Assembly: GCF_000787835.1 (NCBI RefSeq)
Contig: NZ_BBPP01000011.1
Coordinates: forward strand, 68,838-101,280
Reading direction: 5' to 3'
DNA: 32,443 nucleotides
Source: Streptacidiphilus melanogenes
GTDB taxonomy: Bacteria > Actinomycetota > Actinomycetes > Streptomycetales > Streptomycetaceae
The position numbers were made by a program, and so were the translations under genes. This document shows, piece after piece, positions 1 through 21,722 of this stretch. Below the pieces are notes generated by a model that ran no database searches, was not told the origin of the DNA, and saw only the letters and a list, made by a program, of their open reading frames with translations. How positions within the stretch are numbered: position 1 is the stretch's first letter; every line of letters starts with the position of its first letter.

Positions 1-229
1 CGACCGCCAGTCCGAGCACCACGGCCGCAGTGATCAGCAGGGAGGTGCGACGCCGCCGCGGCGGCTTGCCCACGGCCCGCGCGCCGCCCCCGCCCGGCGG
101 CTCCCCGGGCGCCGACGCGGGGACCGTGGGCGGCCCCCCGGGGCCGGACGGAGGACGGCCGGACGAGCCGGACAGCGGGCCGGACGGAGGACCATGCGGA
201 GGACCGGACGGGGGTTCTTGGGAGCTCAC
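1..229 (-). CDS. Pro/Gly-rich membrane-anchored protein, N-terminus only
   Basis: This is the first 76 codons of a leftward gene that leaves the window at base 1. The GTG start at 229 has AGGAAGG about seven bases upstream (rev. 237-243). Residues 1 to about 55 are a low-complexity leader rich in Pro, Gly and Ser (repeats of GPPSGP type), followed by an Arg cluster (PPRRRR) and then a hydrophobic segment LLITAAVVLGLAV, which reads as a single membrane anchor with the leader in the cytoplasm. Such leaders are common on actinomycete membrane-anchored or secreted proteins of many kinds, so the function cannot be given: the informative C-terminal part lies outside. It is divergent from the MarR gene at 369 and shares its 139-bp promoter region. 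Confidence 0.6.
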   Translation of the reverse strand, partial: MSSQEPPSGPPHGPPSGPLSGSSGRPPSGPGGPPTVPASAPGEPPGGGGARAVGKPPRRRRTSLLITAAVVLGLAV

Positions 230-330
230 GGCAGGCCTTCCTGACGGTCGACGCGGACGCGCACCCCATTCTCGGGGCCGGTCGGGCGGCCCCCGCAAAC
301 GGAGCTACGCCAGGCGTGCCCTCGAAAGAC

Positions 331-355
331 ACTAGCCATGGACATAGTAGCCATG
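331..355. promoter_or_regulatory. Candidate operator: two direct TAGCCATG copies
   Basis: TAGCCATG occurs at 333-340 and 348-355, a spacing of 15 bp centre to centre, just upstream of the first MarR-like gene (start 369) and between two divergent genes. A third copy lies at 1457-1464, in the promoter of the beta-propeller gene. There is no Shine-Dalgarno sequence before the ATG at 369, and TACTGT at 356-361 could be a -10 box giving a leaderless transcript. MarR proteins commonly autoregulate from sites in this position. That this motif is the operator is inference. Confidence 0.4.
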
Positions 356-368
356 TACTGTATCCCTC

Positions 369-836
369 ATGAGCGAAGCATCCCCGGAGCCGACGCCCGG
401 CTTCCTGGTCTGGCGTCTGTCGACGAAGTGGCGCGTGGCCGTCGACCGGGCCCTGGCGCCGCACGGCCTCACCCACGCGCAGTACTCGCTGCTCGGGTCG
501 CTGCTCGGCATGCAGCGGTCCGGGCGGCAGCCGACGCAGCGTGAGCTCGCCGACCACACCGGTCTGGAGCCGCTCTACGTGTCCAAGCTGGCCCGCGCCC
601 TCGAGGGCGCGGGGCTGGTCGAACGCACGCCGCACCCGACCGACACGCGGGCCGTCCGGCTGTCACTGAGCGACCGCGGGCGCGATACGACCGAACGCGC
701 GGTCACCGTCGTCCACGACCTCCTGGACCAGCAGTTCGCACCGCTCGGAGGGCTCGACAGCCCCCGCACCAGGACGTTCACGCGCGAGCTGACGGCCCTT
801 CTCGGCACTCCACTCGATTCCACGATCAAGGAGTAA
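369..836 (+). CDS. MarR-family transcriptional regulator (first of a tandem pair)
   Basis: This 155-aa protein has the size and layout of a MarR dimer. A helical N-terminus is followed by a winged helix, with QRELADHTGLEPLYVSKLAR (about 57-76) covering the helix-turn-helix and a wing that contains the family D-x-R signature (D92, R94) before SLSDRGR. MarR proteins bind short palindromes as dimers and usually repress their own operon plus nearby genes, and are released by small ligands or oxidants. No Cys is present, so thiol-based sensing is unlikely. The stop is two bases from the next start, and AAGGAG overlaps the stop region, so the two are translationally coupled. The start at 369 lacks an upstream Shine-Dalgarno sequence and may be leaderless. 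Ligand and targets are unknown; the shared TAGCCATG motif suggests the beta-propeller gene downstream as a target. Confidence 0.88.
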   Translation: MSEASPEPTPGFLVWRLSTKWRVAVDRALAPHGLTHAQYSLLGSLLGMQRSGRQPTQRELADHTGLEPLYVSKLARALEGAGLVERTPHPTDTRAVRLSLSDRGRDTTERAVTVVHDLLDQQFAPLGGLDSPRTRTFTRELTALLGTPLDSTIKE

Positions 837-838
837 CC

Positions 839-1279
839 ATGTCCACCACGCCCACCCTGAACGGCCAGGTCATCGGGCAGGCGCACCTCGCCACCCGCGC
901 CCTGCTCGGCCCCGTGCTCGACCGCACCGGCACCACGTTCGACCAGTCCGTGGTGCTCAACGCCCTTTCCGGCGGCGACGACGACCGGGCCCAGCTGGTC
1001 GCCCGGCTGGCCGGAAACCTCAAGACGACCGATGCGGCGGTGGCCGACGTCGTCGCCGGGCTGGCCGCGGCGGGCCTGCTGGAGCCGGCGCCCGGCGACG
1101 GCTCCCGCCTCCGGCTCACGGACGCGGGCCTGACCCGCAACCAGGAGATCCGCACCGCGATCGACGCGCTCACCCGGCGGCTCTACGGCGACATCCCGGC
1201 CGAGGACCTGGCGACCGCCGGCCGCGTCCTGGCCCTGGTCACCGCCCGCGCCAACGCCGAGTTGGCCGCCCTGCGCTAG
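839..1279 (+). CDS. Winged-helix (MarR-like) protein, second of the pair
   Basis: This 146-aa protein has MarR-like helical ends around a winged-helix core. TFDQSVVLNALSGGDDD (about 35-51) resembles the first helix of the DNA-binding domain, AAVADVVAGLAAAGLLE the recognition region, and GDGSRLRLTDAGL the wing. The canonical MarR D-x-R wing signature is degenerate here (GDGSRLRL). The start is fixed by AAGGAG ending about seven bases before ATG and overlapping the preceding stop codon. It could form a heterodimer with the first MarR protein, modulate it, or act alone; the sequence does not decide. Coupled pairs of this kind suggest the two products are made in a set ratio. It is less typical than its partner, so the family call rests partly on context. 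Confidence 0.7.
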   Translation: MSTTPTLNGQVIGQAHLATRALLGPVLDRTGTTFDQSVVLNALSGGDDDRAQLVARLAGNLKTTDAAVADVVAGLAAAGLLEPAPGDGSRLRLTDAGLTRNQEIRTAIDALTRRLYGDIPAEDLATAGRVLALVTARANAELAALR

Positions 1280-1423
1280 GCCGGGCGCCGACCGGGCACG
1301 ACGAGGCACGCGGCGGCATCCCGCTCAGTTCACCGTGACCGTGAGGGTCTCGGGTGTGGTCGCCCGGGGTCCGGAACGCGGTGACGAGGCCCGCGGCCGC
1401 GCAGGATTTCCCCCGCACGCCCC

Positions 1424-1452
1424 TTGGCTCCTGCGCCCGAACTCCCTACCGT
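1424..1452 (+). promoter_or_regulatory. Candidate promoter of the beta-propeller gene
   Basis: TTGGCT (1424-1429) and TACCGT (1447-1452) are 17 bases apart, a fair match to a vegetative actinomycete promoter. The predicted transcription start, near 1459, falls inside the palindrome at 1458-1471. No transcript data are available, and such boxes arise by chance in long sequences. Confidence 0.4.
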
Positions 1453-1457
1453 CGAGT

Positions 1458-1471
1458 AGCCATGAATGGCT
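1458..1471. promoter_or_regulatory. 14-bp palindrome, likely repressor operator
   Basis: AGCCATGAATGGCT has perfect 6-bp arms around a 2-bp centre and lies across the predicted transcription start of the beta-propeller gene, about 37 bp before its ATG. Its left half is part of the 10-mer AGTAGCCATG, which is also found at 346-355 before the first MarR gene. A repressor bound here would block initiation. The MarR pair just upstream is the obvious candidate, by inference. Confidence 0.5.
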
Positions 1472-1507
1472 TGAGGTGAGCACTTCACAAGACGCGGGGA
1501 GGCATCC

Positions 1508-2752
1508 ATGCGGGCGATCGGCACCTTACGCGGGACCGTCGTGGCGGTGAGCGGCGCACTCCTGCTCGGAGCGGGGCTGGCCGGTCCGCCGGTCGGGACG
1601 GCTCAGGCCGCCCAAGCCGCTCAAGTCGCCAGCGCGGCCGGCGGATTGCGCGACGTGATCGTCGTCGGGAACAGCCAGGCCGGGACCGTCAGCTTCATCG
1701 ACGCCCATACGTTCGCCAACCTGGGCTCGCTGAACGTGACCGCCGACGCGCAGCAGGTCATCGCGCAGATGAACCCGATCCAGTGGGCCGGATTCCAGAC
1801 CGTCACCTCCGTCGAGGGCGGCAACCGCTGGGTGGACGACGCGCAACTGTCGCCGGACGGGCGGACGTTGTACGTGTCCCGGGGCAACCTCGACGACGTC
1901 GCCGCCTACGACATCGCCACCGGGCGGCAGTTGTGGCGCACCCGCCTCGACGGCTTCAAGGCCGACCATGCCGCGCTCTCCCCCGACGGCACCCGCTACG
2001 TCGTCTCCGCGACCACCGCGCAGAAGGCGGAGGTGCTCGACACCGCCGACGGCAGCGTCGTCGGCTCGTTCCCGACCGGGACCTATCCGCACCAGAACGA
2101 CTACTCCGCCGACGGCCGGTACATCTACAACTCCAGCATCGGCGTGACCTCGCTGCCGCAGTCGCTGGAGTGGGCCAAGGGAACGTTCCAGCTCACCAAG
2201 GTCGACGCGCGCACCCTCCAGGTCGTGCAGACGTGGCTGTTCCCGCACGGGATCCGGCCCAACGTGATCGAGCCGGACGGCCGGACGATGTTCACCGACC
2301 TCTCCTACCTGAACGGCTTCGCCCAGTTCGACCTCACCACCGGCCGCCAGGTGCGCACCTACCCGATGCCCTACAGCGCGGCGGGCGCGGCGCTCAGCCC
2401 CGACAGCTACCCGCAGAACTCCGCGCACCACGGCCTCGCGCTCTCCGGCGACGACTCACGCGTCTGCGACGCGGGCACGATCGACGACTACGCCTCCGTC
2501 GTCGACGCCGCCGACGGCTCGACCGTCGGCACCGTCACCTACCCGACCGGCAGCCTCCCGTACTGGGCGACCAGCAGCGCGGACGGCTCGCTCTGCTTCG
2601 TCTCGCTCAGCAAGGGCGACGCCGTCTCGGTGATCGACTACGCCACGGGCAAGGAGCTCGCCCGCGTCCCTGTCGGGGTCTTCCCCCAGCGTGAGCGCAC
2701 CGGCGCGATCGACCCCGCCGTCCTGCCGGACCTCTCCCCGTCGGCGGGCTGA
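1508..2752 (+). CDS. Secreted YVTN/YncE-type beta-propeller protein
   Basis: This 414-aa protein begins with a signal peptide (hydrophobic core about 10-25, likely cleavage after TAQA near 34). The rest is repeats of the YVTN/YncE propeller type, with recurring units such as LSPDGRTLYVSRGNLDDVAAYD, split by turns of D-G-x-x-V-G type and closing on a VSVIDYATGKELARVPVG blade. Such proteins are extracytoplasmic binding or scaffold proteins; no enzymatic residues can be assigned. GGGGAGG lies five bases before the ATG. Codon 7 is TTA (1526-1528), the only TTA I found in a gene of this window; in Streptomyces such codons make translation depend on the bldA tRNA. The promoter has a palindrome sharing a 10-mer with the MarR promoter upstream. 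It is convergent with the thioesterase gene (24-bp gap). Confidence 0.85.
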   Translation: MRAIGTLRGTVVAVSGALLLGAGLAGPPVGTAQAAQAAQVASAAGGLRDVIVVGNSQAGTVSFIDAHTFANLGSLNVTADAQQVIAQMNPIQWAGFQTVTSVEGGNRWVDDAQLSPDGRTLYVSRGNLDDVAAYDIATGRQLWRTRLDGFKADHAALSPDGTRYVVSATTAQKAEVLDTADGSVVGSFPTGTYPHQNDYSADGRYIYNSSIGVTSLPQSLEWAKGTFQLTKVDARTLQVVQTWLFPHGIRPNVIEPDGRTMFTDLSYLNGFAQFDLTTGRQVRTYPMPYSAAGAALSPDSYPQNSAHHGLALSGDDSRVCDAGTIDDYASVVDAADGSTVGTVTYPTGSLPYWATSSADGSLCFVSLSKGDAVSVIDYATGKELARVPVGVFPQRERTGAIDPAVLPDLSPSAG

Positions 2753-4241: not shown

Positions 4242-6533
4242 TCAGGGGTACTCCGGCAGCCCGTCGGACGGGCCGGTGCCCCAGGACGGGGAGGTCTCGG
4301 GGGTGAGGCCGAAGTCGAGACTGTCGGTGGTCAGCGCGTCGGTCCAGGTGCGGCGGCTGTCGCGGCCGTCGCTGGTCAGCGCGGCGATGTGGTCGCCGGA
4401 TCCGTGCGTGATGATGATGAGGTCGTCGCGGCCGGGGCGGTGGACCACGGCGCGCGGGAACAGCGGCGTGGACAGGGCCAGGGTCGTGGTGCCCGGGGTC
4501 TCCGGGTAGAGGCCGAGCGCGGCCCACACGTACCAGGAGCTGAGCGCGCCGAGGTCGTCGTTGCCGGGTTCGCCGTCGGGGGTGTCGGCGTAGAGCTGCT
4601 CCATGATGGCGCGTACCACGCTCTGCGCCCTGGCCGGACGGCCGGTGCCGTCGTAGAGCCAGGGGGTGCCGATCCCGGGTTCGTTGCCCTGCCAGTGGTA
4701 CGGGCGTCCCGGGCCCGCGTTCAGCTCGTCGAAGTACCGGTCGAGCCGGCCGTTGGTCGCGCTCGGGCCGCCGAGCAGCCGGACCAGGGCCGGGAGGTCC
4801 TGCGGCACCATCCACAGGTACTGGGCGGCGTTGCCCTCCTGGAAGCCGTCCTGGGCCTGGCCGTCGCGGAGGTCCCCCAGCGCGGACCCCGGCGGGAACG
4901 CCCCTCCGGGATCACGCGGGCGCAGGTAGCGGGTGGCCGGGTCGTAGAGCCTGCGCCAGTTGCGCGCGCGGTGGCGGAACCTGCCCGCCGTGTCGCCGTC
5001 GCCGAGGGCGGCGGCCAGGCGGGAGACGGCGAAGTCCGCGACGGCGTACTCCAGCGTGGTGGACGCGCCGTTGTGCACGTGGGAGGTGGAGTCCTGACGG
5101 TCGTTGGGCACGTAGCCCAGCCGCAGGTACTGGTCCTCGCCGGGCCGCTCGGTGTACCAGCCCTGGCCGCGCGGGCCGCCTGTGTCCTCCGCGCCGTGGA
5201 CCATCAGCCGCAGCGCGTGGGCCGCGTCGAACCCTCCGTCGCCGAGCGCGCTGATCTCAGCGATCATCGAGTCGGCGGGGTCGCCGTTCATCACTCCCGT
5301 GTAGCCGTCGGCGTAGGGCCACTTGGGCAGCCAGCCGCCCTGGTCCGCGTCGGCGAGAAGGGAGGTGGCGAGGTCGTCGGCCCGCCCGGGGAAGAGCAGC
5401 GCGAGCAGCGGGACCTGGCAGCGGTAGACGTCCCAGCCGGAGATGTTCGTGTACTGAACGTGGCCGGGCGCGACGCGGTGGATCCGGCCGTCGAAGCCGG
5501 AGTAGCGGCCGTCCACGTCGCTGAAGGTGTCCGGGTGGAGGAAGGAGTGGTAGAGCGCGGTGTAGAAGACCCTCCGCTGGGCGCGGCTCCCGCCGCCGAC
5601 GCTGATCGCTTCGAGCGCGGCGCGCCAGGCCGCGCGGGCCCGGTCCGCGACCGTCCGCACGTTCCAACTGCCGGCCTCGGCGTCCAGGTTGGCCCGCGCG
5701 CCCTCCTCGCCGACCCAGGAGACGCCGGCCTGCATCCGCACCCGCGGCTCGCGTCGCGTGTCGAAGGTGAGCGTCGTGCCCGGCACCGGACCGTGCGCGG
5801 AGGCGCGCCACCACGAGGCCCGGAAGGACCGGTCGAAGCGGAGGACGAAGTGCAGCGTGGAGGCGTGCGGAGTGCTGCAGAAGTGACCGGAGGTCACCTG
5901 CCCGGCGAGCTCGCGGTCGTTGACGACCCGGACCGTCGCACGGGTGCTGGCCGTCGCCCCTCCGGCGACGTTGACGAGGAGCGCCGCGGACGCGCGGCGG
6001 GGGTAGGTGAACTGCGCCGTGCCGGTCCGCGTGGTGACGCTCAGCTCGGTCCGGACCCCGTCGGCGGTCACGGCGTAGTAGCCGGGGCGCGCGGTCTCCT
6101 GACCGTGGTCCAGCGGCAGCCGCGCCGACTGCGGTTTCGCCGGCACCGCGCCGGGCAGCGGCAGCACGGGCACGTCCCCGTCCGCAGGGCACCCAGGGCC
6201 GGACAGGTGCGTGAGGCTGAAGCCCGTGATCTGGCGGTCCCCGTAGGCGTAGCCGCCGCCGTCCGGTCTGGACGGCGTGTCGGGGCTCCACTGCACCATC
6301 CCGAACGGCGCCGAGGCTCCGGGGAAGGTGTCGATCCGCCCGACCCAGCGCCCTCCCTCGCCCGTGCCCACGAACGGATCCACGTCCGCCGTCGGGTCCC
6401 CGCCCCCGTCCCGGGCGGCCCACCGGTCAGCCCCCACCCACCCCTGCGCCGCGCCTGGAGCAACCACTCCGGCCATCACGACCGCGACCGCCACAGCACC
6501 GGACACGGCAACGCGACCGATCCGCACGCGCAT
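4242..6533 (-). CDS. Secreted GH92 alpha-mannosidase
   Basis: This 763-aa protein matches glycoside hydrolase family 92, calcium-dependent exo-acting alpha-mannosidases (mostly alpha-1,2) that trim mannans or N-glycans. A signal peptide (hydrophobic core about 8-27, cleavage near GAAQG) shows export. DPFVGTGEGG and a PGASAPFGMVQWSPDT stretch form the family's N-terminal beta-sandwich start. QEGNAAQYLWMVPQD (E566) carries the position of the catalytic acid, GNEPGIGTPWLYD follows, and PGNDDLGALSSWYVWAALG (D659, D660) carries the base region. Length is normal for the family. The ATG at 6533 is chosen because it starts the signal peptide and has GGGAGGGG just upstream; the frame stays open to 6809 but that part is not protein-like. 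It is likely used outside the cell on fungal or yeast mannan. Confidence 0.93.
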   Translation of the reverse strand: MRVRIGRVAVSGAVAVAVVMAGVVAPGAAQGWVGADRWAARDGGGDPTADVDPFVGTGEGGRWVGRIDTFPGASAPFGMVQWSPDTPSRPDGGGYAYGDRQITGFSLTHLSGPGCPADGDVPVLPLPGAVPAKPQSARLPLDHGQETARPGYYAVTADGVRTELSVTTRTGTAQFTYPRRASAALLVNVAGGATASTRATVRVVNDRELAGQVTSGHFCSTPHASTLHFVLRFDRSFRASWWRASAHGPVPGTTLTFDTRREPRVRMQAGVSWVGEEGARANLDAEAGSWNVRTVADRARAAWRAALEAISVGGGSRAQRRVFYTALYHSFLHPDTFSDVDGRYSGFDGRIHRVAPGHVQYTNISGWDVYRCQVPLLALLFPGRADDLATSLLADADQGGWLPKWPYADGYTGVMNGDPADSMIAEISALGDGGFDAAHALRLMVHGAEDTGGPRGQGWYTERPGEDQYLRLGYVPNDRQDSTSHVHNGASTTLEYAVADFAVSRLAAALGDGDTAGRFRHRARNWRRLYDPATRYLRPRDPGGAFPPGSALGDLRDGQAQDGFQEGNAAQYLWMVPQDLPALVRLLGGPSATNGRLDRYFDELNAGPGRPYHWQGNEPGIGTPWLYDGTGRPARAQSVVRAIMEQLYADTPDGEPGNDDLGALSSWYVWAALGLYPETPGTTTLALSTPLFPRAVVHRPGRDDLIIITHGSGDHIAALTSDGRDSRRTWTDALTTDSLDFGLTPETSPSWGTGPSDGLPEYP

Positions 6534-6557
6534 CCCCTCCCTCTCCCGCTCTCCCGG

Positions 6558-6572
6558 GTGACACCCCGTCAC
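6558..6572. promoter_or_regulatory. Small inverted repeat in the mannosidase leader
   Basis: GTGAC and GTCAC flank a 5-base centre, about 25-39 bases before the mannosidase ATG. On the minus strand TACTGT (6592-6587) could be its -10 box, which would place the repeat in the early transcribed region. I see no good -35 box, so this is tentative. Confidence 0.25.
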
Positions 6573-6762
6573 AGCCTGGATGTCGCACAGTAGGTCGGGC
6601 GCCGAACCGCCCAGGAAGCCACACCGCCCCGCCGCAGCGCCTCCCCCGATCGTGTCCACGCGTTGACCTGTGTGGCCGCACCCGCGCGGACACGCCCGCC
6701 ACCGCGGACGCCCACGGTGGAGGATGTCCCTCCGGGGCCACCTCGTCGGATCGGAGCTCGCC

Positions 6763-7131
6763 GTGATCGAGAAGCTGGAGAACCTGCCCGAGGGCGTCAT
6801 CGGGTTCAAGCTCCACAGCCGCCTGACCGGCGAGGACTACGACCAGATCCTCTCCCCCGCCCTCGCCTCGGCCGCCGGGGCGGGGCCGATCCGGTGCGTC
6901 CTGGTCGTCGAGGAGTTCCACGGCATGACCGCGGAGGCGATGAAGGACGACATGAAGCTCGGCCTGGAACACCTGCGCGGTTGGAAGCGCATCGCCGTCG
7001 TCACCGACATCGCCTGGATCTCCAACCTCACCAACCTCTTCGGCTGGATGATCCCGGGCGAGACCAAGGTCTTCCCTCTCTCCTCCCTCCCTGCCGCCAC
7101 CGCCTGGGCCGCCGCCCCGACCGACAGCTGA
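6763..7131 (+). CDS. SpoIIAA-like (STAS-superfamily) protein
   Basis: This 122-aa protein matches the SpoIIAA-like family: IEKLENLPEGVIGFKLHSRL, then TGEDYDQILSPAL, IRCVLVVEEFHGMTAEAMKDD, WKRIAVVTDIAWISNL and FGWMIPGETKVF follow the usual order of strands and helices. The fold resembles anti-sigma-factor antagonists, but this subfamily generally lacks the phosphorylated Ser of SpoIIAA and its role is not settled. I chose GTG 6763 because GGAG lies six bases upstream and the homologous part begins there; ATG 6724 has its GGAGG too close. It is divergent from the mannosidase and precedes the ArsR gene. A second STAS-like gene lies at 7903. Confidence 0.8.
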   Translation: MIEKLENLPEGVIGFKLHSRLTGEDYDQILSPALASAAGAGPIRCVLVVEEFHGMTAEAMKDDMKLGLEHLRGWKRIAVVTDIAWISNLTNLFGWMIPGETKVFPLSSLPAATAWAAAPTDS

Positions 7132-11745: not shown

Positions 11746-11819
11746 GCGCCGGGAGGGCCGGCCGGCAGCCGCCCAGCGAGCGCCCGGAGGCGCTGCCGTC
11801 GATCCCGCCGGAGATCTTG

Positions 11820-13175
11820 ATGTCGCGCACCTCCCGCTCCCGCAGCAGGGCCCGGGCGGCCGACTGGCGGCGCGAAGGGCGCCGCACCAACCTCTGGCTG
11901 GTCCCGGCGATCGAGGCGCTGGCCGCCGCGGTCCTGTTCGCGCTCACGCTCAGACTCGACCGCGCCGCCTACAACGGCGATCTCCACCTGCCCAGCTGGG
12001 TCCTCAGCGGCGGCGCCGACGGAGCCAGGCAGCTCCTGACCACGGTCGCCGCCGCCCTCATCACCGTCGTCGGCCTCGTCTTCTCGATCACCATCGTGGC
12101 GCTCACCCTGGCCACCACCCAGTTCGGACCGCGGATGCTGCGCAACTTCATCCGCGACCGCGGCACCCAGCTCACCCTCGGCACCTTCGTCGCCACGTTC
12201 CTCTACGCGATCCTGGTCCTGGTCGCCATCAGTCCCGGCCCGCACGGCGACTTCGTGCCCCACCTGTCCATCACCACCACCCTCGCGCTCACCCTGGTCG
12301 ACCTGGCGACGCTGATCTACTTCATCAACCACATCGCCCGCTCGATCCAGCTGCCGCAGGTCGTCGCGTCCATCGCGCACGACCTGGCGGACGCCATCGA
12401 CGACCAGAGCGCCCTCGGCGCCGACGCGCCGGACCGGGAGGAGCGCGGGCTGTCCCCCTCCGAACTGCTCGCCCGGATGCGGACCGAAGGCGCCGTCATC
12501 ACCACCTCCGCCAGCGGCTATCTGCAGTACCTGCGGCACGACCGGTTGGTGCGCATCGCCCGCGACGCCGACGCCGTGATCCACATCCCCTACCGGCCGG
12601 GCCACTTCCTGGTCCAGGGCCACCCCCTGGCGTTCGTGTGGCCGCCGCAGGCGGCTGCCCACGTCACGGCCGACCTGCGCCGCGGCCACGTCACCGGCCC
12701 GTACCGCACCCTGACCCAGGACGTGTCCTTCGGCTTCGACCAGCTCGTCGAGATCGCCCTGCGCGCGCTGTCCGCCGCCATCAACGACACCTTCACCGCG
12801 ATCACCTGCATCGACTGGCTCGGCGACTGCCTGTGCCGGATCAGCACCACCTGGCAGCCCCACCACGTCCACCGGGACCGCCACGGCCACGTCCGCGTGA
12901 TCGCCCACCAGCCCGACTACGACCGCCTCGTCCGACGGTCCTTCGAGAAGATCCGCCAGGCCTCCGTCGCCATGCCAGCCGTGATGATCCGCCAGCTCGA
13001 CGCGCTCGACAAGGTGATGCGGCAGACCCACGACCCGGCGCGTCGCAGGCTCCTGATGGAGCAGGCCGACCTCATCCTCCGCACCTGCGACGCCACCGTC
13101 CCCGAGCCGTCGGACCGCGCCGATGTCGAGCGGAGCCATCAGGCCCTCCGCGCCGCCTACGAAGAGCCCGGCTGA
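11820..13175 (+). CDS. DUF2254 membrane protein
   Basis: This 451-aa protein matches DUF2254. An Arg-rich start precedes four membrane segments: VPAIEALAAAVLFALTL, LTTVAAALITVVGLVFSITI, LGTFVATFLYAILVLVAI and TTTLALTLVDLATLIYFINH. The long cytoplasmic part begins near residue 165 with a conserved GYLQYLRHDRLVRIA and FDQLVEIALRALSAAINDTF, the family's strongest motif. The function is unknown. ATG 11820 has GGAG six bases upstream; a TTG at 11817 is in frame but less likely. A short direct repeat (GACACCCCCTT) lies between the permease stop and the palindrome. The stop is five bases from that of the convergent DyP gene, leaving no room for separate terminators. Confidence 0.9.
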   Translation: MSRTSRSRSRARAADWRREGRRTNLWLVPAIEALAAAVLFALTLRLDRAAYNGDLHLPSWVLSGGADGARQLLTTVAAALITVVGLVFSITIVALTLATTQFGPRMLRNFIRDRGTQLTLGTFVATFLYAILVLVAISPGPHGDFVPHLSITTTLALTLVDLATLIYFINHIARSIQLPQVVASIAHDLADAIDDQSALGADAPDREERGLSPSELLARMRTEGAVITTSASGYLQYLRHDRLVRIARDADAVIHIPYRPGHFLVQGHPLAFVWPPQAAAHVTADLRRGHVTGPYRTLTQDVSFGFDQLVEIALRALSAAINDTFTAITCIDWLGDCLCRISTTWQPHHVHRDRHGHVRVIAHQPDYDRLVRRSFEKIRQASVAMPAVMIRQLDALDKVMRQTHDPARRRLLMEQADLILRTCDATVPEPSDRADVERSHQALRAAYEEPG

Positions 13176-13180
13176 CCGCC

Positions 13181-13918
13181 TCAGCCGAGGTTCACCCATT
13201 CGCGCAGGGGACGGTCGTCGCCGACGCGGGTGTCGGTGTGCTGTTCGCCGTCGGCGACGCAGACGGTGCGGACGCCGTCCGGGTGGAAGACCCAGAAGTG
13301 GCTTTTGCCCGCCGCGCGTTGCATGGTGGGGACGGGCAGGAAGGCGTCGACGTGGTCGATCCCGGCGAGGGAGGGCCACAGGTTCAGGCCCGCGTCGTCC
13401 CGGATGCGGGTGTCGGTGTGACGGTCGCCGTCGGCGACGGAGATCATCCGGTGGACCTGGCGCTCGCGCCCGCCCGCGGCGACGGTGTGGAAGACCCAGT
13501 ACCAGCTGGCGCCGCCCACGCGCTGCATGTCGGGCACGGGCAGCACGGCGTCGACGTGGGAGACCCCGGTCAGGGAACGCCACTGGTCGAGTCCGCGGTC
13601 GGCGACCTCGACCTTGCCGGTGTGCGCGGCCCCGTCCGCGACCGAGACGATCCGGTAGGCCTGGGCCCCGGACACGGTGTGGAAGAGCCAGTACCAGCTC
13701 TTGCCGCCGACCCGCTGCAGGTCCGGGATCGGCACGATCGCGTCCACCGCGGCCACCCCCGCCAGGGCCGGCCAACCGGTCAGGTCCTGGCTGGGCCGCA
13801 GCACGAGGTCGGTGGTGTCCTGGCCGTCGGGGAGCACGAGGGTCCGCAGCCTGTCCCGGCGGAACATCCAGAACTCGCAGGCCCCGCCGACGCGCTGACG
13901 GTCGGGCACGGCGAGGAA
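13181..13918 (-). repeat. Four protein repeats encoded in tandem
   Basis: The repeat units of the peroxidase C-terminus correspond to 13918-13739, 13738-13547, 13546-13343 and 13342-13181. They are diverged at the protein level, with shared QRVGG, YWxFHT and VADGxxHT motifs. The last is truncated where the VDA end of a fifth unit would be needed. Confidence 0.85.
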
Positions 13919-15505
13919 CGCGTCGACGCGGGCGGCCGTCGGTGTGCCGTCGGGCAGACGCCCCTGCGCGAGGGCCTTGAGCGTGCTGATCGAGGGGGCG
14001 AAGGCGTACACCGCGCCCTCGGTGCGCACGAAGCGCCGGACCTCGAGCGGGGTGGTCCTGCGCTCGGAGCCGTCGGGTGCGGCGCTCTCGTAGTGGAGCA
14101 CACCGGCGTTCACGTCCGGCAGGCGACCCGCGATCATCGCGTCCGGGCCGGGCTTGGCCGCGCGGCCCGGAGGGAACTCGTCGGTGTTGATCCAGGCCTT
14201 CTGGATGAACTCGAACTGCTCGACCAGGTCGGCCTGGTAGCAGACGAAGAGCAGGCCCCGCGCGGCGTCGGGGCCGCCCGCGGCGCCGGAGGTCGGGTCG
14301 AAGGGCCGGCCGTAGGGGGCGCCGCGGCGCATGATCCGGCGGGCGTCCATGAACGCCTCCGGGACCGGAGCGCCGTCGACCAGCCCGTCACGCGGGGCGC
14401 ACTGGCGCAGGTGGGAGAAGAGCGGGGTGCGCAGCCCGTCGGGGTCGTCGGCGAAGCTGAGGTCGTTGTCGCGGGTCGCGGAGGCGTCGTTGACCGGGTC
14501 GTGGGTCGGGCACGTGTGGACCGGGGCCCCGGAGCGCCAGCGGCCGACCATCCGGGCGGCCAGCCACTCGACGCCCGCGTTCGTCGGCACGGCGCCCTTG
14601 ACCTGCTTGAGCGTGGCCAGTTGGTCGGCCACCTGGGCCCACCAGCCGGGCACGTCCTGGGCGAGACGGCGGATCACCTGGAAGGAGCCGTCGGCCATCC
14701 ACGACGGCATGTCCGCCGCCGGGTAGCGGCGGCGGTCGCCGTCGAGCCGGACTCTGGGGCGACCGACGACGAACTCCCCGGCCGGGATGAGCCGGGTGCC
14801 CGGGTGCTCCTTGGCGTAGCCCTTGCGCCGCGGGTCCTCCTCGTCGAAGCCGGCCACGCCGGGCTCGCTGACGCCGTCCTTGAAGCCGAAGTGCTCCTTG
14901 CCGCGCCGTTCCCCGGTCAGGGTGGCGGCGTTCTGCTGGAACACGATCACCGCCGCGGCCCGGGTGGCGGCCTCGCGCTGCGCGTCGATGGCGGTCTGGA
15001 GGTCCTCGGGCGTGTCGGAGGCGATGGTGAGGACAGCGTGGACGGTCCGGCCGCCGTCGTGGCCGAACAGCCAGTGCTCCCGGGCGCTGTCGTCGACGTC
15101 GCCGACGTCGACGGCGCGGGCCCAGGCGCCGTCGGCGAAGGCCTCCAGGGTGGTGCCCTGGGGCGGGCGAGGGACGGGCGCCGGGTCGCCGGAGAGGAGC
15201 TGGATGCCGGGGTGGGTGAGGCTGACGCCGAGCCAGGTGGCCTTCAACGCCTCGGGATCGTCGCCTCCCGAGGTCCTGCGGGCCGCGCTGAACTTGCGGT
15301 TGAACGCAGCGACCTGCCGGGTCGTGGCGATCCGGGGAGCAAGCTCGCCGAGCCAGGCCTGGGCGGGCGCCCGGTCGACGAACTGGAGGAAGAGCAGGCA
15401 GACGTGGTCCTTGCGGAAGCCGGCGATGACGTCGCCCTGGATCTCGGTGCTGTCGCGCAGGGGCAGGGGCGCGGGCGGGGCCGGGTCGGCGGCCGGGGTG
15501 GTCAT
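13181..15505 (-). CDS. DyP-type peroxidase fused to a four-repeat C-terminal domain
   Basis: This is a 774-aa protein. Residues about 18-480 are a heme DyP peroxidase: GFKDGVSEPG carries the G-x-x-D-G motif (D210), FSHLRQCAPRD the proximal heme His (H365), RIMRRGAPYGRPFD the distal Arg region, and GLLFVCYQADLVEQFEFIQ the conserved family segment near the end. Residues 530-774 are four repeats of 53-68 aa with the pattern P-x-P-x-x-Q-R-x-x-G then W/F-x-F and V-A-D-G-x-x-H-T, ending L-x-G-V-x-x-V-D-A; these resemble the blades of a four-bladed hemopexin-type propeller. DyP proteins normally end without such a domain. No Tat or Sec signal is visible, in contrast to the upstream oxidase. ATG 15505 follows GGAG at about ten bases. 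It lies 83 bp after the oxidase stop, in the same direction. Confidence 0.9.
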   Translation of the reverse strand: MTTPAADPAPPAPLPLRDSTEIQGDVIAGFRKDHVCLLFLQFVDRAPAQAWLGELAPRIATTRQVAAFNRKFSAARRTSGGDDPEALKATWLGVSLTHPGIQLLSGDPAPVPRPPQGTTLEAFADGAWARAVDVGDVDDSAREHWLFGHDGGRTVHAVLTIASDTPEDLQTAIDAQREAATRAAAVIVFQQNAATLTGERRGKEHFGFKDGVSEPGVAGFDEEDPRRKGYAKEHPGTRLIPAGEFVVGRPRVRLDGDRRRYPAADMPSWMADGSFQVIRRLAQDVPGWWAQVADQLATLKQVKGAVPTNAGVEWLAARMVGRWRSGAPVHTCPTHDPVNDASATRDNDLSFADDPDGLRTPLFSHLRQCAPRDGLVDGAPVPEAFMDARRIMRRGAPYGRPFDPTSGAAGGPDAARGLLFVCYQADLVEQFEFIQKAWINTDEFPPGRAAKPGPDAMIAGRLPDVNAGVLHYESAAPDGSERRTTPLEVRRFVRTEGAVYAFAPSISTLKALAQGRLPDGTPTAARVDAFLAVPDRQRVGGACEFWMFRRDRLRTLVLPDGQDTTDLVLRPSQDLTGWPALAGVAAVDAIVPIPDLQRVGGKSWYWLFHTVSGAQAYRIVSVADGAAHTGKVEVADRGLDQWRSLTGVSHVDAVLPVPDMQRVGGASWYWVFHTVAAGGRERQVHRMISVADGDRHTDTRIRDDAGLNLWPSLAGIDHVDAFLPVPTMQRAAGKSHFWVFHPDGVRTVCVADGEQHTDTRVGDDRPLREWVNLG

Positions 15506-15588
15506 GGGGGGTGCTCCGCTCGGAGGGGACGGAGCTCGGGCGGCGGATGGTGGGCCGGCCGCCCGAGCGGGGGTGGTCGTCGGCCGGA

Positions 15589-17358
15589 TCAGCCGTTGGG
15601 GCTGAGCTGGATCCACTTGGCGATGCTGGGCACGCCCTTCGCGTCGAGCAGGAACAGCATGTAGTAGCCGGGCGGCGCGGCCTCGGGGGACGGCGGCGTC
15701 TTCAGCAGCAGCTGACCGTTGGACCTTTCGGCGATGGGCAGTTCGAGGTAGCGCTGGCTGGTGTCGACCGAGTGTGTCGAGGTGATCGGCGCGAGCAGGA
15801 CCGCCTTGGTGACGTTCGTCGAGGTGGTGTCGACGGGGAAGAACCGGTTGTAGCCCTGCGCGCGGGTGGGCACGTCGGTGAGCGTGGGGCGCGGGCCCTG
15901 GAACAGGTACGGGGGTTCGTAGATCTCGATGGAGCCGTTGGCGTCCGGGTTCTTGATGTCCGGGTTGGTGGCGAGCTCCTGGAGTTCGTCGCCGGTGACC
16001 ATGATCCGGCCGTCGGGCAGCAGCACGGCGTTGGAGTGGTAGCCGCGCGGGATGCGCTGGGCCGGCCCGAGGGTCCAGGCGCCGTTCGCGTCGCGCGCCT
16101 CCGTCTGACGGTACTTCAGGTCAGCGTTGGGGTTGAGGTCGCCGAAGCCGTAGTCGCGGATGCCGTACGAGCCGTTGACGGTGAACAGGTTGCCGCCGGG
16201 CATGATGAGCGTGTCGTCCATGGCGCGGCCGAAGGCGCGTGGCGTGCTCTTGGTCCACCGGCCGCCGGAGAACAGGTAGGTGTTCGGGTCGTCCCGGTTC
16301 CCGCCGAGGATCAGCACCGAGTTCGGGCCTGCGGTGCCGTTCGGCAGGGCGACCGCCGACCCGTACATCCGCAGCCCGCCGTCGGGGCGGTTGGGCAGTT
16401 GGGTGCGCGTCTCCTTCACCGGGTCGAAGAGGAACTGCTGGTCGGCGTCGCGTCCGAAGCCGTAGATCTTCCCGTCGTTGAGCGAGAACAGATGGGGGTA
16501 GTCCATCCGGTAGGGGGCGTCGGCCTTCTGCCACTGGTCCACCGGGTTGTTCTCGGTGAAGGTGCGGCCGTAGGTGACGTCCGTCCCGGCCGCGGGGAAA
16601 CGCTCGATGATCGGGGTCGCCGTACCCCAACCCAGCTCGGTCTGGCCGGACATGATGGTCTGCCGACCGTCCGCGCCGGTGACCACGGTCGGGTACCAGC
16701 GGCCGACGGACATGTCCTGCTGCCGGAGCCACTTCTCCGTCCAGGGGTCGAAGACGAACGAGAACCGGGTGCCGGCTCCGTTGTTGCCGCCGAAGTTGCC
16801 GCCGAACACCGCGACCATGCCGTTGGGCAGGTACGCGTGCCCGGCGCAGAACAGCGGGGCGGGGCGCGGCTGGTCGAGCCCGTCGTCCACGTTCACCACC
16901 GGCGGCGGCACGGCCTTGAACGCGTTCGGCCCGGTGCCGAGGCTCGGGTCCCACAGGTAGGCGCGGCCCGCGTTCTCCTTGCCGATCGTCTGCGTCGGGG
17001 CTGGCTCCTGCTGCGGGTTGGTGGTGATCCGCTCGAAGGAGAAGAGCAGCACCTTGCCGGTGGGCAGCAGCGCGACGTGGTCGCCGAAGTCCGGGGAAGG
17101 GAAGAAGTCGGTGAACCGCCCGAACTTGCCCAGGTCGGTGAACTTGGCGTTGAGCGCGGCCTGCGAGTCGGTCAGCGTCTTCAGGCGCAGCGCCCGGATC
17201 GGGTCCGGGTAGTCGCCGACCCCGCGCACGCTGCGCGCGCCGGGCGGCTGGTCGGCGGCGTAGCCCCGGGCGGTGGGAAGCGCCGTGGACAGCGCGGTCG
17301 TGGTGCCGAGGGCGAGAGCGGCGCACGCCACGAGCGCCGCGGACAGTCTGTGTCGCAT
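15589..17358 (-). CDS. Secreted copper radical oxidase (galactose/glyoxal oxidase-like)
   Basis: This 589-aa protein has a signal peptide (MRHRLSAALVACAALALG) and then a kelch-type propeller ending in a DUF1929 C-terminal beta-domain. All copper-site residues of the galactose/glyoxal oxidase family are present: FCAGHAYLPNG gives C171, GRWYPT gives Y222 (the expected Cys-Tyr crosslink), GYHSN gives Y440 and H441, and STHSVDTSQR gives H529. The family oxidises aldehydes or primary alcohols to acids or aldehydes and makes H2O2. GlxA of Streptomyces, by memory, belongs here, but its usual partner cslA is absent and this copy lacks an N-terminal anchor beyond the signal peptide. ATG 17358 starts the signal peptide; AGGAG lies 11 bases upstream. 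The DyP gene follows 83 bp downstream, so the two are likely co-transcribed. Confidence 0.93.
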   Translation of the reverse strand: MRHRLSAALVACAALALGTTTALSTALPTARGYAADQPPGARSVRGVGDYPDPIRALRLKTLTDSQAALNAKFTDLGKFGRFTDFFPSPDFGDHVALLPTGKVLLFSFERITTNPQQEPAPTQTIGKENAGRAYLWDPSLGTGPNAFKAVPPPVVNVDDGLDQPRPAPLFCAGHAYLPNGMVAVFGGNFGGNNGAGTRFSFVFDPWTEKWLRQQDMSVGRWYPTVVTGADGRQTIMSGQTELGWGTATPIIERFPAAGTDVTYGRTFTENNPVDQWQKADAPYRMDYPHLFSLNDGKIYGFGRDADQQFLFDPVKETRTQLPNRPDGGLRMYGSAVALPNGTAGPNSVLILGGNRDDPNTYLFSGGRWTKSTPRAFGRAMDDTLIMPGGNLFTVNGSYGIRDYGFGDLNPNADLKYRQTEARDANGAWTLGPAQRIPRGYHSNAVLLPDGRIMVTGDELQELATNPDIKNPDANGSIEIYEPPYLFQGPRPTLTDVPTRAQGYNRFFPVDTTSTNVTKAVLLAPITSTHSVDTSQRYLELPIAERSNGQLLLKTPPSPEAAPPGYYMLFLLDAKGVPSIAKWIQLSPNG

Positions 17359-17949: not shown

Positions 17950-18594
17950 TCAGGTGACCAGCTCGTAGATGCTCCTGGCGGTGAGATAGAGCCCCACCAG
18001 CAGCGAGAGGGTGACGATCAGCTGGTCCTGGTGCTCTTCGAGCCAGGTCCGCAGGGCTTCGAGGCGGGCGTGTGCGGCGCCCGGCGCCCAGACGGTGTAG
18101 AGCTCCATCACCAGCAGACTGAGGGTGGCCAGCAGGCAGTAGCCGCTCAGGGCCAGCCAGTCGTCGGCGGCGGAGAGGTCGGCGTCGACGACCGTGGCGG
18201 CGCCGGCCCCGACCATGGCCCACGGCTGGAGGAGCCAGGCAAGCCCGGCGGCGGTGCCGAGCGAGGCGTCGTCGACGCGCTCCGTCCAACGGGGTGGCTG
18301 GTGCGGACGGGGCGGCCGCCGACTGCGGTACCCGCCGAACACCACCAGGCCGACGCCGATCGCCAGCTTCGCGGCCACGGCCGCGGTCGAGGGTGCGCTG
18401 TGGTGGACCGGCGGCGTCCCGCCGGTCAGCAGCACCACGCAGGCGATCACCGCGACCAGGTTGGCAAGCCAGGAGAGCAGGAAGGCCAGCCCCTTGCGGA
18501 CGCCGCGCCGCGAGGACAGCAGCAGGATGAAGGCGCTGTTGTGCAGCGGCCCGAGGGTGATGGCCGCACCGATCACGATCAGGTCGAGAACCAC
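17950..18594 (-). CDS. GAP/SfLAP-family membrane protein (LysE-like fold)
   Basis: This 214-aa protein has six hydrophobic segments, the first VLDLIVIGAAITLGPLHNSAF then LLLSSRRGVRKGLAFLLSW, closely resembling the GAP (Sap, SfLAP) family of actinomycete membrane proteins, related in fold to LysE exporters. Some mycobacterial members help move lipids or glycopeptidolipids to the surface; the substrate here is unknown. GTG 18594 is chosen because GAGGGAG lies ten bases upstream and homology starts there; the frame stays open to 18720 through a Pro-rich stretch that looks untranslated. The strong hairpin at 18622-18658 lies just upstream of it, between this gene and the aldo/keto reductase stop. 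Confidence 0.72.
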   Translation of the reverse strand: MVLDLIVIGAAITLGPLHNSAFILLLSSRRGVRKGLAFLLSWLANLVAVIACVVLLTGGTPPVHHSAPSTAAVAAKLAIGVGLVVFGGYRSRRPPRPHQPPRWTERVDDASLGTAAGLAWLLQPWAMVGAGAATVVDADLSAADDWLALSGYCLLATLSLLVMELYTVWAPGAAHARLEALRTWLEEHQDQLIVTLSLLVGLYLTARSIYELVT

Positions 18595-18621
18595 CGGGTC
18601 GGCGCTCCCTCGGTCCGGGAC

Positions 18622-18658
18622 CCCGCCGGGCACGCCGGGCTCCGGTGTGCCCGGCGGG
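18622..18658 (-). terminator. Strong GC hairpin with 12-bp perfect arms
   Basis: CCCGCCGGGCAC (18622-18633) and GTGCCCGGCGGG (18647-18658) are perfectly complementary around a 13-base loop. It follows the aldo/keto reductase stop at 18778 in the direction of transcription and precedes the GAP-family start at 18594. Streptomyces terminators often lack a U-tract, so this fits a terminator; it could also be in the GAP leader and act there. Confidence 0.55.
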
Positions 18659-18777
18659 CGGGGCGGCGGCGCGGATCGCGCCGCATCCCGACTCTGCGGG
18701 GCCCCGGACGCCCAGGTCAAGCAGGCCGCGCCGTCACCGCGTCGACACCGCGGGAACGGACGCGGCCTGCCGGGGTC

Positions 18778-19889: not shown

Positions 19890-21722
19890 ATGGCGTTCGA
19901 CACGACTGGTCTCGGGCAGGCCCCCAGCGGCACCCACTACAGACCGATCTCCGAGCACGGCCTGATCGGCGATCTCCATACGGCCGCGCTGGTCGCGACG
20001 GACGGCACCATCGACTGGTACTGCTGCCCCCGTTTCGACGCGCCGAGCGTCTTCGGGTCCATCCTCGACGCCGCCCGGGGCGGGTCGTTCGAGCTGGCCG
20101 CCGAGATCCCCACCCGAACCCGGCAGTTCTACTTCCCCGACACGAACGTGCTGATCACACGGTTCTTCGCCACGGACGGGGTGGCCGAGATCCAGGACTT
20201 CATGCCCGTCGCCGACGGGCCCGTCGAGGGGGCCAGGCACCGGCTGATCCGGCGGGTGCTCTGCGTCCGGGGAGCCCTCCCCTTCCGGGCACGCGTCGCG
20301 CCGCGGTTCGGGTACGGCGCCGAGCGGCACACGGCGCACCTCGAAGGCCACGTGGCGGTGTTCCGGTCCCCGTCCCTGGCGCTCGCGCTGACCGCCACCG
20401 CGCCGCTGGAGAGCGACGGGGTGGACGTGTGGTCGCACTTCAAGCTCCTCGAGGGCGAGTCCCACGTGTTCGCCCTCGACCAGATCGGCGACGACGTCCC
20501 GCCCCGGTCGTGTCCGCGTGCCGAGGCACAGGCGGAGGCCGAGGCGACCGTCCGGTTCTGGCGCCACTGGCTGGCCGGGTCGCGCTACCACGGGCGGTGG
20601 CGCGAGATGGTGAACCGCTCCGCACTGGTGCTGAAGCTGCTCACCTACGCGCCGACCGGCGCGATCGTCGCCGCGCCGACCACCAGCCTGCCCGAACAGG
20701 TCGGCGGCGAACGCAACTGGGACTACCGGTACGTGTGGGTCCGCGACGCCGCCTTCTGCGTCTACGCGCTGCTGCGCCTCGGGTTCACCTCGGAGGCCGA
20801 GGCGTTCATCGGGTTCCTCTGCGACCGGATGCGAGGCAGCGCGCCGACCGGCCCGTTGCAGATCATGTACGGCATCGACGGGCGCAGCGAGCTGCCCGAG
20901 TACGAGCTGACCCATCTGGAGGGACACCTCGGCTCCGCACCGGTCCGGGTCGGCAACGCCGCGACAGGCCAGCTCCAGTTGGACATCTACGGGGCGATGA
21001 TCGACTCCGTCTACCTGTACGACAAGTGGGGCCGGCCCATCAGCAGCGCCGACTGGGAGGAGATCGGCGCGGTGGCGGACTGGCTGTGCGAGCACTGGGA
21101 CCAGCCCGACGAGGGAATCTGGGAGACCCGCTCGGGCCGCAGGAACTTCGTGTACTCGCGGCTCATGTGCTGGGTGGCGCTGGAACGGGCGATGCGGATG
21201 GCGGCCCGCCGCGGGCTGCCGGCCGACCTGCCCCGCTGGCGCGAGTCCCGTGACGCGATCTACCGGCAGATCATGCGGCGCGGCTGGTCGGCCGAGCGGA
21301 GCGCGTTCGTCCAGTCCCTGGACGACGGCGAGCTGGACGCCTCGCTGCTGATGATGCCCATGGCCAGGTTCATCGCGCCCACCGACCCCAAGTGGCTCTC
21401 CACCCTGGACGCGCTCACCGGGGACCTGGTGTCCGACTCGCTGGTCTACCGCTACAACCCGGCCGCCAGCCCGGACGGCCTGCGTGGCTCCGAAGGCACC
21501 TTCTCGATCTGCTCGTTCTGGTACGTGGAGGCGCTGGCCCGCGCCGGCCGACTCGAGGACGCCCGGCTCGCCTTCGAGAAGATGCTCACCTACGCCAACC
21601 ACCTCGGTCTCTTCGCCGAGGAGATCGGTCCGACCGGCGAACAGCTCGGCAACTTCCCCCAGGCCTTCACCCACCTCTCGCTGATCAGCGCCGCCTTCAA
21701 CCTCGACCGGGCACTGGGCTGA
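19890..21722 (+). CDS. GH15-family glycosidase (trehalase/glucoamylase-like)
   Basis: This 610-aa protein has the two-part layout of bacterial GH15 proteins: an N-terminal trehalase-like beta-domain (HYRPISEHGLIGDLHTAALV then GTIDWYCCPRFDAPSVFGSI) and an alpha/alpha-barrel from about residue 250. ERNWDYRYVWVRDAAF is the family's substrate-binding segment, PDEGIWE carries the likely acid (E408), and GLFAEEIGP the likely base (E577/E578). These enzymes hydrolyse alpha-glucosides such as trehalose in the cytoplasm; no signal peptide is present. ATG 19890 follows GGGGAGG closely. It is divergent from the aldo/keto reductase, with an operator-like repeat between. Whether the substrate is trehalose or another alpha-glucan is open. 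Confidence 0.92.
   Translation: MAFDTTGLGQAPSGTHYRPISEHGLIGDLHTAALVATDGTIDWYCCPRFDAPSVFGSILDAARGGSFELAAEIPTRTRQFYFPDTNVLITRFFATDGVAEIQDFMPVADGPVEGARHRLIRRVLCVRGALPFRARVAPRFGYGAERHTAHLEGHVAVFRSPSLALALTATAPLESDGVDVWSHFKLLEGESHVFALDQIGDDVPPRSCPRAEAQAEAEATVRFWRHWLAGSRYHGRWREMVNRSALVLKLLTYAPTGAIVAAPTTSLPEQVGGERNWDYRYVWVRDAAFCVYALLRLGFTSEAEAFIGFLCDRMRGSAPTGPLQIMYGIDGRSELPEYELTHLEGHLGSAPVRVGNAATGQLQLDIYGAMIDSVYLYDKWGRPISSADWEEIGAVADWLCEHWDQPDEGIWETRSGRRNFVYSRLMCWVALERAMRMAARRGLPADLPRWRESRDAIYRQIMRRGWSAERSAFVQSLDDGELDASLLMMPMARFIAPTDPKWLSTLDALTGDLVSDSLVYRYNPAASPDGLRGSEGTFSICSFWYVEALARAGRLEDARLAFEKMLTYANHLGLFAEEIGPTGEQLGNFPQAFTHLSLISAAFNLDRALG

Follow-up and report, generated by a model that had tools for sequence, protein, structure and literature searches.

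A recurrent fusion of a predicted class V DyP-type peroxidase with a hemopexin-like propeller, encoded next to a putative copper radical oxidase in Streptacidiphilus melanogenes and other Streptomycetaceae

The window, i.e., the entire 32,443-nucleotide stretch of the Streptacidiphilus melanogenes contig analyzed here, carries on its minus strand a 774-codon gene (13181..15505, a single open frame from ATG) preceded by a probable ribosome-binding site, GGAG, found by eye 8 nucleotides 5′ of the start codon (15514..15517, minus strand). Its product consists of an N-terminal heme domain of the DyP family (residues 1 to ∼515, 13961..15505, minus strand) and four C-terminal repeats. The heme domain matches the Pfam families DyP_N (residues 21-178, E = 1.3e-10, 42.1 bits against a gathering score of 27.5) and Dyp_perox_C (residues 388-442, E = 2.1e-7, 31.3 bits against a gathering score of 20), and the protein also matches TIGR01413 (E = 1.4e-33, 116.6 bits against a cutoff of 100.5). 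Its top match in the PDB is 7anv, an ancestral D-type DyP (E = 1.5e-56, TM score of 0.78 by target length), with the EfeB-like entries being far weaker (5e-5 to 7e-4). Asp210 of the GFKDG (GXXDG) motif (14876..14878), His365 (14411..14413), and Arg393 (14327..14329, all on the minus strand) are conserved in 38 of 38 aligned rows and align with their counterparts in 2d3q and 7anv; Asp210 corresponds to the distal Asp, and we take His365 to be the putative proximal heme ligand and Arg393 the putative distal Arg. The original prediction of a DyP peroxidase with four C-terminal repeats is borne out by these family matches, as well as by the scores of the repeats over shuffled sequences (see below). 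By sequence, the fused protein belongs to the class V (D-type) dye-decolorizing heme peroxidases, extended by a C-terminal propeller, and would be expected to possess heme peroxidase activity. The genome encodes six DyP family matches above the cutoff, the fused DyP included, and another of the six is located on the same contig (C97:15742-16632); such genes are found above the cutoff in all 10 hand-chosen genomes.

The four repeats, each starting at a V-D-A motif, span residues 527-586 (60 residues, 13748..13927), 587-650 (64 residues, 13556..13747), 651-718 (68 residues, 13352..13555), and 719-774 (56 residues, 13184..13351, all on the minus strand). In all six pairwise comparisons, the blades score 16 to 27 standard deviations higher than shuffled sequences (500 each), and identity between blades ranges from 22/60 to 36/64 residues. 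The motifs Q-R-x-x-G, W-x-F, and A-D-G-x-x-H-T that had been listed as shared are indeed present and are clearest in blades 2-4, with blade 1 deviating at the last of them. The closing V-D-A that had been noted does not exist as an additional element: the four V-D-A tripeptides are the starts of the four blades (527, 587, 651, and 719), and the chain terminates with W-V-N-L-G. The computed fold of residues 527-774 is a closed, hemopexin-like four-bladed beta-propeller, which, together with its likeness to known hemopexin folds, supports the hemopexin-type propeller proposed from the repeats. The nearest four-bladed folds are those of the chickpea albumin (3s18), LS24 (3lp9), the hemopexin domains of MMPs, vitronectin, and serum hemopexin, which share no more than 17% identity with the window's propeller; the nearest of these carries the title of a hemagglutinating albumin. 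These hemopexin rows come from applying VIA-align to the top 1000 Foldseek hits, a second look at the same hits and no independent search. The Foldseek top 50 against the PDB included no hemopexin, and the highest places in the Foldseek order went to propellers of Nup133, clathrin, and glycosidases (TM scores of 0.22 to 0.45 by query length).

When searched alone, as had been suggested, the window's repeats match no Pfam or NCBIfam family at E values up to 1, and there is no PF00045 match at its gathering score. Likewise, PF00045 does not appear in the family list for 42 repeat domains (25 of 26 families shown), none of 27 single blades matches any family profile, and a profile built from the 42 domains retrieved nothing from the PDB sequences at E values up to 10. 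Three PDB sequence matches to the window's repeats alone (E = 0.16 to 0.58) were taken as chance. The match of a single-blade profile to the designed “Pizza” propellers (8e-11) was rejected because it sums six near-identical repeats, each contributing ∼6 bits, with a per-repeat E value near 100. An alignment of 40 propeller domains from Kitasatospora, Streptomyces, and Streptacidiphilus, 37 to 86% identical to that of the window, retains 18 invariant positions. On the computed model, this bacterial hemopexin-like propeller is an unannotated branch of the hemopexin fold.

Located 83 bp upstream of the fusion gene is a gene for a 589-residue galactose/glyoxal-oxidase-like copper radical oxidase, referred to here as GLX (15589..17358, minus strand), which belongs, presumably, to the CAZy family AA5. 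GLX matches PF09118 (E = 1.2e-22), and its best PDB match is GlxA (4unm, E = 4.6e-31). Alignment with 4unm reveals the complete set of the Tyr-Cys cofactor pair, the axial Tyr, and the two His residues in the window's GLX, and Cys171, Tyr222, Tyr440, His441, and His529 are kept in 35 of 36 aligned rows, the exception being the frameshifted L106. By eye, its N terminus resembles a signal peptide, and GLX is probably an exported copper radical oxidase that supplies H2O2. It shares PF09118 and all five cofactor and copper residues with galactose/glyoxal oxidases but forms a separate sequence group: its score with the GlxA equivalog NF052501 is 167.6 bits, below the cutoff of 800, and the complete sequences of this group in the family sample show 60 to 97% identity to the window's GLX, with other copies at ∼35%. 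No GlxA above the NF052501 cutoff is encoded in the window's genome; one is present in 2 of the 10 hand-chosen genomes.

Other genes in the window encode glycosidases of the GH92 (4242-6809, minus strand) and GH15 (19890-21722, plus strand) families, a DUF2254 membrane protein (11817-13175, plus strand), an SfLAP-like (Sap, sulfolipid-1-addressing) protein (17950-18720, minus strand), and an MMPL transporter (30083-32284, minus strand). A sigma-70 scan of the window found no promoter, the terminator scan returned a single site, located inside GLX and no more than shuffled sequences give, and scanning for Rfam families and tRNA genes detected none in the window.

Among 297 Streptomycetaceae genomes, the repeat domain was detected in 48, including that of the window, at E ≤ 0.001. 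The co-occurrence of the two parts, which had been proposed as a check, is seen in a single frame in 42 of the 47 other matching genomes (43 of 297 with the window), the locus being frameshifted in L056 and shortened in L078. A scan of the genomes of 84,980 species with two peptide patterns, which diverged copies may escape, yielded 38 loci, all from Streptomyces, Kitasatospora, or Streptacidiphilus, and 37 of these carry the fusion, with 38 frames containing both parts and a frameshift at the L106 locus; this named-genome set overlaps with the family sample. Because the fusion recurs at 37 named-genome loci, it does not stem from an error of frame or assembly in the window. Among named genomes, Streptacidiphilus neutrinimicus is the closest (86% identity in the repeats). 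In Streptomyces sp. AV19, GLX precedes a tandem pair of DyP-propeller genes (L121:4458-11186, plus strand). Almost nothing was found for the repeats outside Streptomycetaceae in a phylum sample of 396 genomes, only two weak short matches in G076 (L004, E = 3.3e-4) and G287 (L005, E = 3.7e-4), and searching that sample with an alignment of the repeats returned family members only. No relative of the repeats was detected in viral contigs, and of 87 matching PLSDB plasmid records none reached 80% coverage of the fusion, the 15 matches listed falling in the heme domain only.

Relatives of the propeller are also found in other domain architectures. At the remaining pattern-scan locus, Streptomyces netropsis encodes the propeller C-terminal to a PLAT/LH2 domain (E = 1.1e-8; L118:7416-8738, plus strand, the same gene as L069:6528-7850, plus strand). 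Two Ser/Thr kinases carry C-terminal hemopexin-like repeats, one (L082:4548-5852, plus strand) with a PF00045 match of 2.1e-4 (21.6 bits against a cutoff of 21.3) and the other (L124:1498-2868, minus strand) with one of 0.015 (15.6 bits, same cutoff). These repeats may be extracellular sensor domains, since a hydrophobic segment, recognized by eye, precedes them in L082. Stand-alone diverged repeats of ∼290 to 370 residues with no Pfam match above the cutoff are encoded at L079:6996-8111, L080:4132-5010, and L081:7203-8234. In this analysis, peroxidases, a PLAT protein, and Ser/Thr kinases were found to carry this branch of the hemopexin fold.

GLX adjoins the 5′ side of the fusion gene in 36 of the 37 named-genome loci (in broken frames in L106 and cut by the contig end in L088), and the remaining locus, L113, begins at a contig end, with the GLX side missing. 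Besides the window, GLX is adjacent at 40 of 42 fusion loci of the family sample; in the two exceptions, G517 and G578, it is encoded elsewhere in the genome. The fusion gene directly follows GLX in the window and in roughly one-half of its relatives (17 of 35 pairs are codirectional) and is divergent from it in the others (18 of 35). All 18 divergent pairs fall, by eye, within one 21-row clade of the tree and therefore point to one flip with adjacency kept. Among the 38 named loci, gene clusters beyond the fusion, GLX, and the frames that overlap these two, sorted by eye, are common to at most ∼11 other loci.

Unfused DyPs served as controls. GLX was found at none of 15 phylum-sample loci with heme domain E values of ≤1e-15 (5.9 to 17 kb read each), which is a weak control because 13 of the 15 loci belong to other families and GLX itself was not searched there. 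A heme domain search within the family (195 genomes) yielded 13 unfused close relatives (E < 1e-120), of which 5 have an adjacent GLX (L159, L169, L170, L172, and L174), 6 have none nearby, judging from search coordinates and short stretches (G352, the second copy in G578, two in G481, G502, and C45 of G548), and 2 (G419 and G516) lie near contig ends with GLX at the end of another contig. None of 42 weaker family DyP places (1e-96 to 1e-19) is next to a GLX clade gene, by comparison of coordinates by hand. Of 28 GLX loci not beside the fusion, 23 show no DyP in the 9 to 16 kb read, two of the 23 being cut just downstream. The pairing is, accordingly, a property of the DyP clade and not of the propeller, while being near universal when the propeller is present, and GLX is able to occur alone. 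Inspection by eye of the surroundings of 18 lone GLX copies revealed no nameable partner; a small secreted-looking gene (by eye) lies beside a DyP-less GLX at L173:5165-5833, L175:6002-6712, and L182:5711-6382 (all minus strand).

The unfused close relatives differ in their C termini, with a B-lectin-like tail in 8 of the 13 and no tail in 5 (L159, L169, L170, L194, and L199). The B_lectin domain (PF01453) is above the Pfam cutoff in L172 (1.8e-8) and L200 (4.1e-8) and below it in L142, L196, L197, and L198; the tails of L174 and L195 are B-lectin-like by eye only, with no PF01453 match reported. The lectin-tailed DyP of L172 (9164-11053, plus strand) is encoded beside GLX and has a Gly/Ser-rich linker; that of L200 occupies positions 179-2032 (minus strand). 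The unfused DyPs at L142:7205-9430 (PF01453 at 0.016) and L198:1093-3021 (0.052; both plus strand) have, by eye, Tat-like N termini and no GLX nearby. In the maximum-likelihood tree of 61 heme domains (L194 to L200 not included), all fused and GLX-paired DyPs together with L142 form one clade (support of 100/99). L142 and L169, whose N termini both look Tat-like by eye, branch off together first, followed by L172 with L174, an order limited by the root, moderate support, and long branches (L169, L174, and L142 are flagged). The fused group has support of 91/85 (not starred), with the tail-less, GLX-paired L159 and L170 nested inside. Three changes of the propeller, such as a single gain followed by two losses, are needed on this tree, and its well-supported branches force two changes. 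The tail thus appears to be exchangeable within the clade, being a propeller, a B-lectin-like tail, or none.

The fused DyP shares its heme domain, the GXXDG Asp, the proximal His, and the distal Arg with the class V (C/D-type) DyPs 7anv, Bjerkandera 2d3q, AauDyP, Amycolatopsis DyP2, AnaPX, and SaDyP1/2. It differs from them in that the alignment with the solved enzymes covers only residues 17-513 and is followed by ∼245 residues of propeller, and in that its gene adjoins one for a copper radical oxidase. Unlike the hemopexin-fold propellers of 3s18, 3lp9, MMPs, vitronectin, and serum hemopexin, the domain has no PF00045 match and is part of a bacterial peroxidase fusion. The closest functional parallel is the GlxA-DtpA system of Streptomyces lividans, in which, according to the available part of PMC4736821, a copper radical oxidase is functionally linked to a DyP. 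There, however, the DyP is of a different class, whereas here GLX is below the GlxA cutoff, the genes are adjacent, and the DyP has a propeller or a lectin-like tail; in contrast to DtpA, the fused DyP has neither a twin-arginine nor a hydrophobic N terminus by eye and is D-type by sequence. A literature search, at the level of listings, on DyPs with hemopexin, propeller, lectin, or binding modules found nothing on the fused architecture, in agreement with the earlier remark that no described DyP of this kind was known. The DyP-propeller architecture represents a recurrent variant of the class V DyPs that lacks annotation, to which the present analysis adds the pairing with an oxidase and the exchangeable tail.

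Galactose/glyoxal oxidase and DyP chemistry allows such a pair to make and spend H2O2. The reading favored here, whose chances appear about even, is that of a two-enzyme oxidation module. GLX would produce H2O2 from O2 while oxidizing an aldehyde or alcohol that may be part of a glycan, and DyP would use this H2O2 to oxidize a second substrate. As a docking module, the propeller would tether the peroxidase to the surface of a glycan or protein, the part played by the B-lectin-like tail in sister lineages. Both domains, the intact active-site residues of the two enzymes, the fold, and the pairing come from computation; the module would further entail enzyme activity, cotranscription, H2O2 transfer, and docking. 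A docking role, probably on glycans, is suggested because a lectin-like tail stands in place of the propeller and the nearest fold is titled a hemagglutinating albumin. Paired unfused relatives leave the proposed H2O2 transfer unaffected, as it requires pairing of the DyP clade rather than of the propeller. Precedents for coupling include GlxA and DtpA in S. lividans (PMC4736821 and PMC8197335) and a Kitasatospora pyranose oxidase proposed to fuel DyPs (PMC6581175), as described in the available parts of these papers.

The main difficulty for this two-enzyme module is the missing signal peptide of DyP: none is seen by eye in propeller-bearing DyPs where the start is clear. As only GLX has, by eye, a signal-like N terminus, the two proteins may be on opposite sides of the membrane. 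H2O2 passes through membranes, but docking outside the cell would need an export route, and none is seen for the fused DyP. By eye, a Tat-exported look is displayed by the tail-less or lectin-tailed L142, L169, L198, and L199. In the available part of PMC8395514, the class V enzymes SaDyP1 and SaDyP2 are described as not secreted when expressed.

Alternatively, the propeller could serve assembly or stability, by fixing how DyP oligomerizes or by direct binding to the neighboring oxidase. The presence among the fold matches of 1itv, titled as a dimer of the MMP9 hemopexin domain, and the close gene pairing, suggestive of a physical partner, would agree with this; yet 23 of 28 GLX copies have no DyP in the stretch read, GLX-paired DyPs without a propeller exist (L159, L169, and L170), and the N termini point to different compartments, which makes such a role rather unlikely. 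Binding of heme or another porphyrin by the propeller, which would load, store, or protect heme for the peroxidase domain, appears improbable. A common fold is no proof of function, even with the heme-binding hemopexin among the closest folds and with a hemopexin-fold seed protein, DC25, for which binding of a heme analogue and peroxidase activity are described (according to the available part of PMC6934871). Moreover, relatives of the domain are found on the PLAT protein and on Ser/Thr kinases without a Pfam heme domain, and unfused DyPs do without a propeller, which a B-lectin-like tail can replace. One more possibility, also quite doubtful, is that DyP serves GLX, carrying out DtpA-like copper oxidation for GLX maturation fed by GLX-made H2O2, with the pair replacing GlxA-DtpA in morphogenesis. 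DtpA is needed for GlxA maturation at low copper, for which Cu(I) oxidation has been proposed (available part of PMC4736821), and GlxA above the NF052501 cutoff is missing in the window's genome and in all but 2 of the 10 chosen ones. DtpA, however, is described in the available text as a Tat-exported class I enzyme, as opposed to the class V fused DyP, in which no Tat signal is seen; a canonical GlxA is encoded in G457 and G610 in addition to the DyP-GLX pair, and GLX often has no DyP neighbor. Finally, the view of the propeller as a functionless neutral passenger of the fusion, prompted by its absence from two members nested in the fused clade, is very hard to reconcile with 18 invariant positions among 40 rows of 37 to 86% identity from three genera.

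A broader version of the two-enzyme module, which seems unlikely to hold in full, is a Streptomycetaceae cassette in which GLX passes H2O2 to DyP, the targeting module is exchangeable, the propeller is a binding domain of a new family, and the pair takes over the cell-surface-glycan role of GlxA in some GlxA-less genomes. The physiological roles of class V DyPs from Amycolatopsis, Anabaena, and S. avermitilis are, according to the available part of PMC8395514, not established. A peroxidase with a probable peroxide-producing neighbor and an exchanged tail offers a concrete route to such a role: the substrate of the oxidase would name the source of the peroxide, and the ligand of the tail would name the target.
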